A stretch of DNA of 63,673 bases, from assembly GCA_021463195.1 (NCBI GenBank), contig JAJTXZ010000020.1:1-63673 (forward strand), given 5' to 3'. Of the stretch, positions 58,683 to 62,736 are shown piece by piece (the first letter of the stretch is position 1; each line of letters starts with the position of its first letter). Source of the stretch: Anaerolineae bacterium. GTDB lineage: Bacteria; Chloroflexota; Anaerolineae; UBA4142; SHND01. Below the pieces are notes generated by a model. The model ran no database searches, was not told the origin of the DNA, and saw only the letters and a program-made list of their open reading frames with translations. Made by a program: the position numbers and the translations under genes.

Positions 58683-59672
58683 TCAGCGCGTACGTCGCGC
58701 GCCGCGCCAGACAAACGCGCCGGTAACCAACAATGCGCCGCCCAAAGCGATCAACGCAAACGTCAGCGGCAAATTATTCATGTCACCGCCAGTCGCAGGC
58801 AGCGTCGCGGGCGCCGGAGTATTATTCACTGCCGGAATCGTCTTCAAGTACGCCGCAATCGCCGCGCGGTCCGCGTCAGTCAATTTGCTAAAACCGCCGG
58901 CAACCACTTGAGCCATCAAACCGCCCACCGCGCTGCCATCGGGACGCTGTCCGGTTTTCAACAGATTCACGATTTGTTCTTCCGTCCAAGTTCCAATTCC
59001 GGTTTCCATGTCCGGCGTAATATTCGCCGCGACTTCGCCCTCGACCACCGAACCTGCCAAGAACTTGTCCATCATGGGCGCGCCCTGCGCGTCCGTCGGA
59101 GTGTGACAACCGCTGCAATCTGAAACATGCTTTACCAGATACTCGCCGCGGGCGGCGCCTTCCGTCGGAGCTGTCGCGGGCGCTTGTGGCGGCGTGAACG
59201 GCGGAACCGGAATCTTGAGATCATCTTTTGGCACATCATTGCTGACCGGCGGCACCGTTTTGATGTATGACGCCAAATCATACGCGTCCTGGTCCGACAT
59301 GCCGCTAAAATTCTGATACGGCATTATCGGGAACAGCATTCCGCCGTCCGGCGTCTTGCCGGTGCGAATCGCAGTCACGATATCGGCTTCGCTCCATTTA
59401 CCCAACCCTGTCGCCTCGTCGGATGTGAGATTCTTGGCGAACACCACCCCCAATGGGCCCAAATCATACTTGGCGCCTCCAGCAAGAAAACCCGCCTCGG
59501 ACATGTGACAGCCGCAGCCCGCCGCCGCCACAAAGATATACGACCCGCGCGTCGGGTCGCCTTTCATTTCTTGCGCGGGCGGCGCGGCTTGCGTGCTTGC
59601 TGAAAACGCCGCCGCCACAAACATCAGTATCGCTGCCGCGAACATTGCGCCCGCGATTATTCGTCGTTGCAT
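58683..59672 (-). CDS. Exported two-domain cytochrome c with LPXTG-like tail
   Basis: A 329-residue protein from ATG 59670-59672 behind GGGGAGAG. The signal peptide ends near ASTQAAP (about residue 30). Two cytochrome c domains follow. The second has a normal site, CSGCH; the first reads AAGCGCHM, in which the two Cys are separated by a single residue (CXCH). Later Met residues (FPIMPYQNFSGMS) are sixth-ligand candidates. The C-terminus is LPATGG, a hydrophobic helix and RGARRTR, the layout of a sortase cell-wall sorting signal. No sortase gene is in the window. Confidence 0.87.
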   Translation of the reverse strand: MQRRIIAGAMFAAAILMFVAAAFSASTQAAPPAQEMKGDPTRGSYIFVAAAGCGCHMSEAGFLAGGAKYDLGPLGVVFAKNLTSDEATGLGKWSEADIVTAIRTGKTPDGGMLFPIMPYQNFSGMSDQDAYDLASYIKTVPPVSNDVPKDDLKIPVPPFTPPQAPATAPTEGAARGEYLVKHVSDCSGCHTPTDAQGAPMMDKFLAGSVVEGEVAANITPDMETGIGTWTEEQIVNLLKTGQRPDGSAVGGLMAQVVAGGFSKLTDADRAAIAAYLKTIPAVNNTPAPATLPATGGDMNNLPLTFALIALGGALLVTGAFVWRGARRTR

Positions 59673-59781
59673 TTTTTTCTCTCCCCTTCCATCTTGCGCT
59701 TGCGTTCGACGCGATCCATCCAATCTAAATATATTTTATTATTTTTTTATTATTCACGCAATGCGCCCTATAGCTCAGATT

Positions 59782-60039: not shown

Positions 60040-62736
60040 CTACTTGGCGATAGCCGCGTCTCGCGTTAGCGCGTGCATCCAAAATATCGTCAACCAAAAC
60101 ACATACGCCAAATCCACATAAAAATACGCCGCGTCAATCAAACCGTGCGCGAGAAAATTCACCATGCTCGCCATCAAACCGAGCGTCAACGCGCGCGCAA
60201 ACCAATCCTCTGTCGTTTTGAACGTATGCCACGCGCGGCGAAAAAACAAAACCAGCAGCGTCAACAACAGCGCGACGCCGAAAATTCCGAGCCGCGTCCA
60301 AAAATCCAAAATAAAATTATGCGGATGCGAAAGATTCGGTTCGCGCCACGCGTCGGGCAAAATATATTTCGGATACTCGTACAAAAAATTATCCAACCCG
60401 ACGCCGAGCAACGGATGCGCGCGGATCATGTTCACCGCGCTCGTCCACACCGCCACGCGAAAAAAACCCGTCCCCGTTCCGGTTTGAAACAATGAATGGA
60501 AACGTTCCGTCGTCATAAACCATCCCAACGCCAGCGCGCCCGCACTCAAGGCGCCGCCAATGCCAAGCCACGCGCGACGCGATAAACGACGGTTTTGCCA
60601 ATATGCCGTCACCAAAACAAACAACACGCTCGCGGGAACGCCCAGCAGCAGCGCGCCGCGCGAATACGTCAAAAGAATCGTCACGCCAAACAGCGCGGTC
60701 AGCGCCGCGTAAATCCAACGCGCGCGGCGATTGCGCCACCACAACGCGAACGTCAGCGCAAGCGGCAATAATCGCCCCAAATACAACGCGACATTGTTCG
60801 GCGAACCCCACACCGCCGTTAACCGCGCGACGCCGTCAGCCAAAATCACATCGCCGGTCGCGAATTGATACAAACCGATGAGGCACACCGCGACGCCGGA
60901 CGCGAGCAACGCCGCAACCTCGCCTCTTATTCCGCTTTGGAAAAACGCGGCGGACAAATCTTTCGCCTCGCCCGCTAGGGCGGCGGGGTTGCGAGCGAGA
61001 GACGACATCCGCAGCAGCGCGTACAGCAGCAGCGGATCCAATACCATAATCCGAAACTCGCGGCTCGCTACGCCAAAGTTGTCCGCCCAACGCGTCGAAA
61101 GCGCGCCTAAAATAAAAAACGCGAGCGCGCACAAATCAAACGGCGAGACCTGCGCGCGCAAACCGCGGATTGAAAATAATTTACGCGCGCGCGCGAATTG
61201 ATTTTCCAAAATTTCATTCAGCGCGAATGCGCCGACTGCCGCCCACGTGAACGCTTCGACCGGCGCCAAAGCAAAACCGCCAAACAAACTTTTTGGAAAA
61301 TTCCAAAAAGGAATCGTCAAGATAATCAATGCGAACGCGAAATCCAATCGGAGCGCGAATAAAACAATCAACGCGGCGAGCAACAGAAAATTTAGCGCGG
61401 GGTGGGGCGAAAAATAAAACGCGATGGCGACCGCCAAGACCGCCGCAAACTGCGCGAGTTCGGGGAATCGCCGCGCGCGCGTTTTCAGCGCGCGCCAACG
61501 TTCCGTCGCGCGCAGCGCAAACATCCAATGCCACGCGCGCCATGCCGCGACGAGCGCGACGCCGCCGCAAAGCGCGAGCGCCAAACCGGGCGCGGCGGGC
61601 GGCGGCGACAGAGGGGGAGGTGAAATATTAAAGCGTTGGAGCGTTTCATAAAACGCGCGCGGCGTTCCATCGCGCGTCAACAGCGCAAAACCCCAACGCG
61701 GATTATTTGCGTCCACATTCGGCTGCAAATAATTTGGAAACGCGTGCGTGACCCAAGCCCATTCGTTTCGCATGCGCGCTAGGCCGCGCGCGAGCCGGTC
61801 ATTCTGTATTGCCTCTGTATCGCTGCCCCACGGCGAGGGCGCGCCCGTCCAAGGCGACGGCAGCGCGTTCCATCCCATTTCCACCGCCCACATTGGTTTA
61901 GTCGCGTCGCCGTAATGCCGCATCTCATCGCGCAGCAAAATCAGCCGCGAAAAATTCAATGTGTCGGAATTCACCGCGCGGTCTTCGGGGCCCGTCCACA
62001 TGCCATACGGTTTCGCCGCGACCACATCAAAATATTTTTGCGCGCCAATTTCGTACAAGCCGCGCAAAAATAAAATCTCGGAATAATTCGGATGCGGACG
62101 CTGAACCTTGAGATTCATCGCCAAACCCGCGAGCAAAATTCGCGCGTCGGCGTCGTGCGCCCGAATCGCGTCCGCCGCGGGGCCAAGCATTTGCGCGTAT
62201 TCGGTTGGGTCGGCGTTGCGCTTGCCCCAATTTGGCTCGACATTTGGCTCGTCCCAAATTTGGTAATAGGTTAACGCATCGCCATAACGTTCGGCGAACG
62301 CGCCGCCAAAGCGCGCGAATTCAGAAAAATCATCCGGCGGCGCGTTCGGCATGTCGCGTTCGCCCGCGCGTTGACTCCACGCGGGCGCGGTGGTCAACAC
62401 GGCGATTAGTTCGATGCCATTTGCGCGTGCCGCGTTCACAATGCGATCCGCGCGCGTCCAATCATACGCGCCGCGCGTCGCTTCGATTTCGCGCCATGAA
62501 AAATATTGACGCGCGCGCGTAATCCGCGCGTCTTGCAACGCGCGGAACGCGCGCCGCAAAGCGGCATCATCATATTGTTCCAACGCCACATTTGTCCCGA
62601 TGCTTTGGGTCGTCGCGCGCAAATCGTTTTCAATCCCGCGCGTCATGCGCGCGTAATCCAGCGTCGCATAACTCGCCGCGCCGAGCGAAACGACGAGCAG
62701 CAAGAGATAGAGGAACAGAGTAAACGTCCGCAGCAT
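60040..62736 (-). CDS. Glycoside hydrolase-like domain fused to O-antigen ligase-like membrane domain
   Basis: An 898-residue protein from ATG 62734-62736. One N-terminal helix (2-22) precedes an external TIM barrel (about 50-370) of the GH5/GH39 clan: E163 in YYQIWDEPN is the acid/base candidate and E286 in MWAVEMGWN the nucleophile candidate. About 12 helices follow, with O-antigen ligase/Wzy features such as LLTYSRGALLLG and a periplasmic loop RAHPLLGVGLDNFLYEYP with HPHNFILDFWTRLG. Known ligases join lipid-linked glycans to acceptors; the attached hydrolase might trim or transglycosylate the same glycan. Fusion function is inferred. Confidence 0.87.
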   Translation of the reverse strand: MLRTFTLFLYLLLLVVSLGAASYATLDYARMTRGIENDLRATTQSIGTNVALEQYDDAALRRAFRALQDARITRARQYFSWREIEATRGAYDWTRADRIVNAARANGIELIAVLTTAPAWSQRAGERDMPNAPPDDFSEFARFGGAFAERYGDALTYYQIWDEPNVEPNWGKRNADPTEYAQMLGPAADAIRAHDADARILLAGLAMNLKVQRPHPNYSEILFLRGLYEIGAQKYFDVVAAKPYGMWTGPEDRAVNSDTLNFSRLILLRDEMRHYGDATKPMWAVEMGWNALPSPWTGAPSPWGSDTEAIQNDRLARGLARMRNEWAWVTHAFPNYLQPNVDANNPRWGFALLTRDGTPRAFYETLQRFNISPPPLSPPPAAPGLALALCGGVALVAAWRAWHWMFALRATERWRALKTRARRFPELAQFAAVLAVAIAFYFSPHPALNFLLLAALIVLFALRLDFAFALIILTIPFWNFPKSLFGGFALAPVEAFTWAAVGAFALNEILENQFARARKLFSIRGLRAQVSPFDLCALAFFILGALSTRWADNFGVASREFRIMVLDPLLLYALLRMSSLARNPAALAGEAKDLSAAFFQSGIRGEVAALLASGVAVCLIGLYQFATGDVILADGVARLTAVWGSPNNVALYLGRLLPLALTFALWWRNRRARWIYAALTALFGVTILLTYSRGALLLGVPASVLFVLVTAYWQNRRLSRRAWLGIGGALSAGALALGWFMTTERFHSLFQTGTGTGFFRVAVWTSAVNMIRAHPLLGVGLDNFLYEYPKYILPDAWREPNLSHPHNFILDFWTRLGIFGVALLLTLLVLFFRRAWHTFKTTEDWFARALTLGLMASMVNFLAHGLIDAAYFYVDLAYVFWLTIFWMHALTRDAAIAK

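Follow-up and report, generated by a model that had tools for sequence, protein, structure and literature searches.

A PslG-like barrel joined to an O-antigen-ligase-like membrane domain in Chloroflexota: distribution of the fusion and fate of its catalytic pair

Introduction

In many polysaccharide operons a hydrolase gene accompanies those for synthesis, for reasons that are debated. In a 63,673-nucleotide stretch of DNA from an Anaerolineae bacterium (the window; source genome of 4.72 Mb in 143 contigs), a hydrolase-type barrel and a ligase-type membrane domain are encoded by one gene. An initial annotation of this gene had proposed that the barrel trims or transglycosylates the polymer handled by the ligase. 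The locus thus raises the question of what a glycosidase barrel does when it is part of a putative ligase, and whether it still possesses the means to cut.

Results

Gene, domain architecture and predicted model

The fusion was encoded by a single open frame on the minus strand, from an ATG at 62736 to a stop at 60040, and an alternative TTG start 42 nt upstream would give a protein of 912 aa (Table 1). The 898-residue product combined a Wzy_C match with a PslG-like barrel, which bore out the earlier claim of one chain with both domains. Pfam analysis placed Wzy_C at residues 679-825 (E 1.1e-20; 74.3 bits against a cut-off of 31.7), while the N-terminal part scored barely above the cut-off for Glyco_hydro_42 (25 bits, cut-off 21) and barely below it for Cellulase (GH5) (22.1, cut-off 23.5). 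IctB (TIGR00947) was rejected as an identity for the protein, the score of 77.8 bits being far below the cut-off of 366 and the match reflecting the common Wzy_C.

Table 1. Positions of the fused gene, its parts and its upstream neighbour in the window
Feature	Position	Strand	Description or basis
Upstream same-direction gene, cut by contig end	62825..63673	(-)	C-terminal beta-propeller part, family profile E 7.3e-95
Fused gene	60040..62736	(-)	898 aa: N-terminal anchor, PslG-like GH39-type barrel and O-antigen-ligase-type membrane domain
N-terminal transmembrane helix (signal anchor), residues 2-32	62641..62733	(-)	AlphaFold helix 2-32, hydropathy 2.41
Predicted extracytoplasmic (beta/alpha)8 barrel, PslG/GH39-like, residues 45-376	61609..62604	(-)	Profile, structure alignment, topology
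E163 codon, equivalent of PslG acid/base Glu165	62248..62250	(-)	Alignment
E286 codon, equivalent of PslG nucleophile Glu276	61879..61881	(-)	Alignment
Polytopic O-antigen-ligase-like domain, residues 420-898	60043..61479	(-)	Wzy_C, WaaL 7tpg
Wzy_C Pfam core, residues 679-825, with R693, R760, H804, H806	60262..60702	(-)	Pfam

The AlphaFold model of the window protein had a mean pLDDT of 92.3 and a pTM of 0.87, with pLDDT above 90 over most of the barrel; the barrel resembled PslG and the membrane half resembled WaaL. The predicted topology consisted of the N-terminal helix, the barrel outside, a positive loop (406-425) inside and the catalytic loop (742-817) outside. According to this prediction, the barrel and the ligase centre would share the same outer face of the membrane, as the initial annotation had supposed in calling the barrel external, and the positive-inside loops are consistent with this arrangement.

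Likeness of the barrel to PslG

The nearest solved relative of the barrel was PslG of Pseudomonas aeruginosa (GH39; PDB 4zn2, 5bx9, 9g17). A family profile of 62 members matched PslG along the full length of the barrel (E 2.6e-33), and the window model aligned with 9g17 over 332 residues (Z 33.1, rmsd 3.3 A), in agreement with the initial assignment to a GH39-related clan, here clan GH-A. The two catalytic glutamates named in that annotation, E163 and E286, were numbered correctly and aligned with Glu165 and Glu276 of PslG, which are the acid/base and the nucleophile, respectively (PMC11912335). PslG is mainly found at the inner membrane, and its hydrolytic activity is required for normal Psl production (PMC6813494, PMC9075953), so that membrane association and a part in glycan synthesis are further points of likeness. 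The PslG double mutant E165Q+E276Q does not restore Psl production (PMC6813494), and the natural E-to-Q changes of some fused homologues look alike.

The differences were equally clear. PslG is a separate and catalytically active protein, about 22% identical to the barrel, whereas the barrel described here is fused to a ligase and the catalytic pair has been lost in most homologues. The acid/base motif reads W161-D-E-P-N165 in the window and W-N-E-P-N in PslG, so that the acid/base is preceded by Asp162 and not by the Asn expected in clan GH-A. In PslG this Asn164 contacts the -1 sugar (PMC11912335), and another -1 contact, Asp332, is replaced by Asn345 in the window protein. The residues that contact sugar in the distal subsites of PslG were not conserved in the fused family, which indicates a ligand other than Psl.

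Likeness of the membrane half to O-antigen ligases

The membrane half was confirmed as Wzy/WaaL-like and polytopic, the family profile matching WaaL (GT121; PDB 7tpg) with an E of 1.4e-9 in addition to the Wzy_C match. WaaL was also the best structural match of this half: the model of the long form aligned with 7tpg over 372 residues (Z 24.7), and in a Foldseek search with the window model WaaL ranked ninth (E 2.6e-7). The predicted models thus showed both a WaaL fold and a catalytic loop on the outer face. R693, R760, H804 and H806 aligned with R191, R265, H311 and H313 of WaaL, where R191 and R265 bind diphosphate and H313 is proposed to activate the acceptor (PMC10920833). Among the fusions with a full ligase half (111), R760, H806 and D868 were invariant (111/111 each), H804 was present in 110/111, and position 693 was Arg or Lys in 100/111.

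These residues bear on whether the membrane half is a ligase or a Wzy-type polymerase, in which case the barrel would be a built-in chain-length or chain-holding module. Wzy_C takes in both kinds, and sequence separates them with less than certainty. His in the position that activates the acceptor is characteristic of O-ligases; in most of the clan's inverting polymerases this position is Asp or Glu (PMC10920833). The HxHN motif, with its invariant His at the WaaL H313 position, and the structural match to WaaL therefore argue against a polymerase, which we consider quite unlikely.

Two known systems were compared with the fused protein. WaaL has the same fold, and its active site contains the corresponding two Arg and His, but it is without the extra N-terminal anchor and barrel. 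The PglL protein O-oligosaccharyltransferases share Wzy_C with the conserved Arg and His (PMC3643930). PglL_A (PF15864), a model built on known proteobacterial PglL, was not listed for the fusion in the Pfam scan. To our knowledge, no PglL carries a barrel.

Distribution of the fusion

A search for the same architecture in Chloroflexota genomes, sampled at class and phylum level, showed the fusion as one ORF in 126 distinct homologues with adequate coverage of the barrel among the loci fetched; 111 of these had the full ligase half and served as the base for the residue counts given above. In the class-level sample of 298 genomes drawn evenly, 207 had a match at E <1e-60, not all of them necessarily fusions, and in the phylum-level sample 108/400 genomes had a match at 1e-40, some of which were not fusions. 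In a plasmid collection, the matches covered the barrel only, and none covered 80%. An assembly artefact, which the initial annotation had named as a refuting outcome, was ruled out together with an annotation artefact, because other species carried the fusion as a single ORF in many independent assemblies.

Within the window's genus, each of the five further genomes sampled contained the fusion (5/5), one of them (G001) with a split frame. In that locus (L013; G001:C183:22802-25892) the break between the two overlapping ORFs fell close to query residue 590 and is probably due to a frameshift or sequencing error.

The spacer between the halves came in two lengths: about 40-50 residues, which is the layout of the window protein, and about 120-240 residues. 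AlphaFold prediction of one long homologue placed a beta-sandwich in the spacer, between the barrel and the membrane half, which distinguishes the long fused homologues from PslG and is absent from the window's clade, either lost or never present. In L129 this inter-domain beta-sandwich (L129:6471-6854, residues 385-512 of L129:5319-8447) gave a weak CE2_N match.

The barrel tree was compatible with a single fusion, since constraining the unfused rows to stay together gave a tree more likely than the quick unconstrained one (p-AU 0.886). Several fusions from outside Anaerolineae retained N-E...E, and therefore the loss of the catalytic Glu probably came after the fusion, as far as an unrooted tree allows this to be read.

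Fate of the catalytic pair

Both Glu were kept in 45 of the 126 fused homologues (31 with D-E...E and 14 with the full N-E...E), while one or both were missing in 81. Position 163 was replaced by N, Q, A, D or T, and position 286 by H, N, S, A, Q, R, D, T or F. The acid/base was preceded by Asp in 83% of the fused homologues. These bacteria also have stand-alone PslG-like barrels, which lack a membrane ligase and share about 35-40% identity with the fused one; here both Glu were present in 33/33 cases, and Asn preceded the acid/base in 97%. The association of fusion with Glu loss gave a Fisher p of 8e-13 on rows that are not phylogenetically independent, the independent pairs being too few for a sign test. 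On a tree built from ligase columns only, the minimum number of changes was 16 for the both-Glu state, 14 for the acid/base and 12 for the nucleophile, and on a barrel tree without the catalytic columns the both-Glu state changed at least 13 times.

The window's genus showed D-E...E with both Glu in all sampled members, and its sister family, about 48-51% identical overall, had lost the acid/base through E163N (D-N...E) in 12/12 tree rows. The catalytic pair on which the initial annotation relied was thus lacking across much of the family, including close homologues, which is an outcome that the annotation itself had named as refuting; in the window's genus the pair was present, with Asp in place of Asn. 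As a general function, the proposed trimming or transglycosylation was not supported by this count.

A narrower form of that proposal is that the barrel of the window's lineage is a working retaining endo-beta-glycosidase whose cuts, made before ligation or in its course, set the length of the polymer, loss elsewhere being secondary. The Glu pair of the genus, the fused homologues with D-E...E or N-E...E and the dependence of Psl production on hydrolysis by PslG speak for it, but both -1 contacts are altered in the window (Asp for Asn and Asn345 for Asp332), the first of them also in the great majority of fused barrels and hardly ever in unfused ones, and the acid/base is gone in the sister family. 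We regard active trimming as rather improbable, though worth serious consideration.

The pocket frame followed a different course from the catalytic residues. In the 74 full-length fused proteins without a catalytic Glu, W93, D97, P118, W120, P164, N165, W283, G288, W289 and W328 were invariant, and W161, which flanks the acid/base, was invariant or nearly so. In the same proteins, columns 163 and 286 ranked 143rd and 250th in conservation out of 319. Loss of catalysis with an invariant frame can be read as selection on the pocket as a binding cleft without chemistry; structural demands could explain some of the invariance. That the catalytic residues were lost repeatedly would also be expected of a functionless passenger domain in decay; yet the frame residues stay invariant even without catalysis, the barrel is modelled with high confidence, and the single-ORF fusion recurs in many assemblies, which also opposes an artefact. 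A decaying passenger or an artefact is therefore very hard to credit.

The replacements themselves allow another reading, in which Glu-lacking barrels are natural glycosynthases or transglycosidases that form beta-linkages from alpha-linked diphosphate-activated donors, giving two glycan-forming centres per chain. Separate lineages had changed the nucleophile to H, N, S, A, Q or R, or the acid/base to N or Q. Engineered glycosynthases and thioglycoligases use substitutions that include Ala, Ser and Gln, but neither His nor Arg is known as a substitution in glycosynthases. Undecaprenyl-diphosphate-linked repeats are axially linked activated donors, as this reading would need (PMC10920833). A new active site would, however, call for one conserved replacement, and none was found, so that we judge this reading highly improbable.

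Gene neighbourhood and genome context

Complete relatives of the truncated upstream product contained DUF348, G5 and a beta-propeller. A gene of this G5-DUF348-propeller type adjoined the fusion in 57 of the 142 loci with enough upstream sequence (species duplicates included), often overlapping it by a few bases, and was a recurrent partner across Anaerolineae. The downstream gene in the window (58683-59723, minus strand) encoded a cytochrome c in which two haem domains were matched, together with a match to an LPXTG-like C-terminal tail.

Elsewhere the fusion was followed, at many loci, by genes for a sugar epimerase, a second Wzy_C protein with HxHN, GtrA and a GT4. The frequent second Wzy_C protein, together with about nine Wzy_C proteins in the window's genome, indicates that several such enzymes operate and would suit a polymerase; the neighbour also carries HxHN, however, so that this pair alone gives no division into ligase and polymerase. 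The assignment of the fusion as ligase and the downstream neighbour as polymerase was accordingly unsupported. In four loci (L112:4732-5280 and relatives) the fusion was separated from the epimerase gene by a gene for a Macro-domain protein.

An unfused PslG-like barrel gene lay directly upstream of the fusion in 8 loci (L152, L153, L155, L156, L159, L160, L161 and L163). In these tandem barrels the upstream, unfused one had an intact W-N-E-P-N and nucleophile, and in L152 the fused barrel was D-D...A behind the active-type unfused barrel.

Four LytR-CpsA-Psr proteins were likewise encoded in the window's genome, and the priming-transferase family Bac_transf was matched nine times; lipid-linked glycan assembly is likely present. 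LpxC was detected in none of the 20 nearest genomes (20/20 negative), with positive controls in E. coli and others. Lipid A is probably absent from these bacteria, and therefore lipid A-core, the acceptor of WaaL, is improbable as the acceptor in the fusion genomes.

Discussion

The reading we prefer, and which we hold to be slightly more probable than an even chance, is that the fused protein is a lipid-linked-glycan ligase with a pseudo-glycosidase barrel that mainly grips the glycan. From the conserved residues, the predicted fold and the genome content we infer the ligase activity, its donor and acceptor, and the binding role of the barrel. The protein would be an extracytoplasmic O-antigen-ligase (GT121-like) enzyme that uses an undecaprenyl-diphosphate-linked glycan. 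R693 and R760 would hold the lipid-linked donor glycan, and H806 would activate a wall or protein acceptor. The PslG-type GH39 barrel beside the ligase may grip the polymer, present it to the ligase or set which polymer is accepted; this binding role is suggested by the conservation of the frame, some residues of which are possibly purely structural.

The acceptor would most likely be a cell-wall or protein glycan and not LPS, because LpxC, and hence probably lipid A, is missing. That a G5-propeller protein is a recurrent partner suggests an acceptor bound to the wall. As a counterpoint to the gripping role, the barrel may be active in the 45 homologues with both Glu, and in these lineages, including the window's genus, it may also trim.

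A bolder form of the preferred reading is put forward tentatively, the balance leaning somewhat against it: the ligase would have domesticated an exopolysaccharide hydrolase as a built-in covalent polymer receptor, the barrel threading or selecting the polymer, and the altered pocket of some lineages could even serve as a natural glycosynthase. If true, the domesticated barrel would be a glycan-side counterpart of the pseudo-kinases.

Each half of the protein is of a known kind, and the fusion is seemingly undescribed. In the open-access literature searched, which takes in few subscription journals, no paper described the fusion, brought together PslG and O-antigen ligase, or linked an O-antigen ligase to a glycoside hydrolase domain in Chloroflexota; automated databases may well list the architecture.

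The finding makes a hydrolase-type barrel and a ligase one molecule throughout much of a phylum. It also provides a natural series, from the intact N-E...E through the altered D-E...E to the presumably dead D-N...E and D-E...H, with the ligase centre unchanged, and this series allows the direct question of whether such a barrel serves for cutting or for holding. Finally, it suggests that Chloroflexota have a ligation step independent of LPS; the surface glycans of this phylum have hardly been studied.
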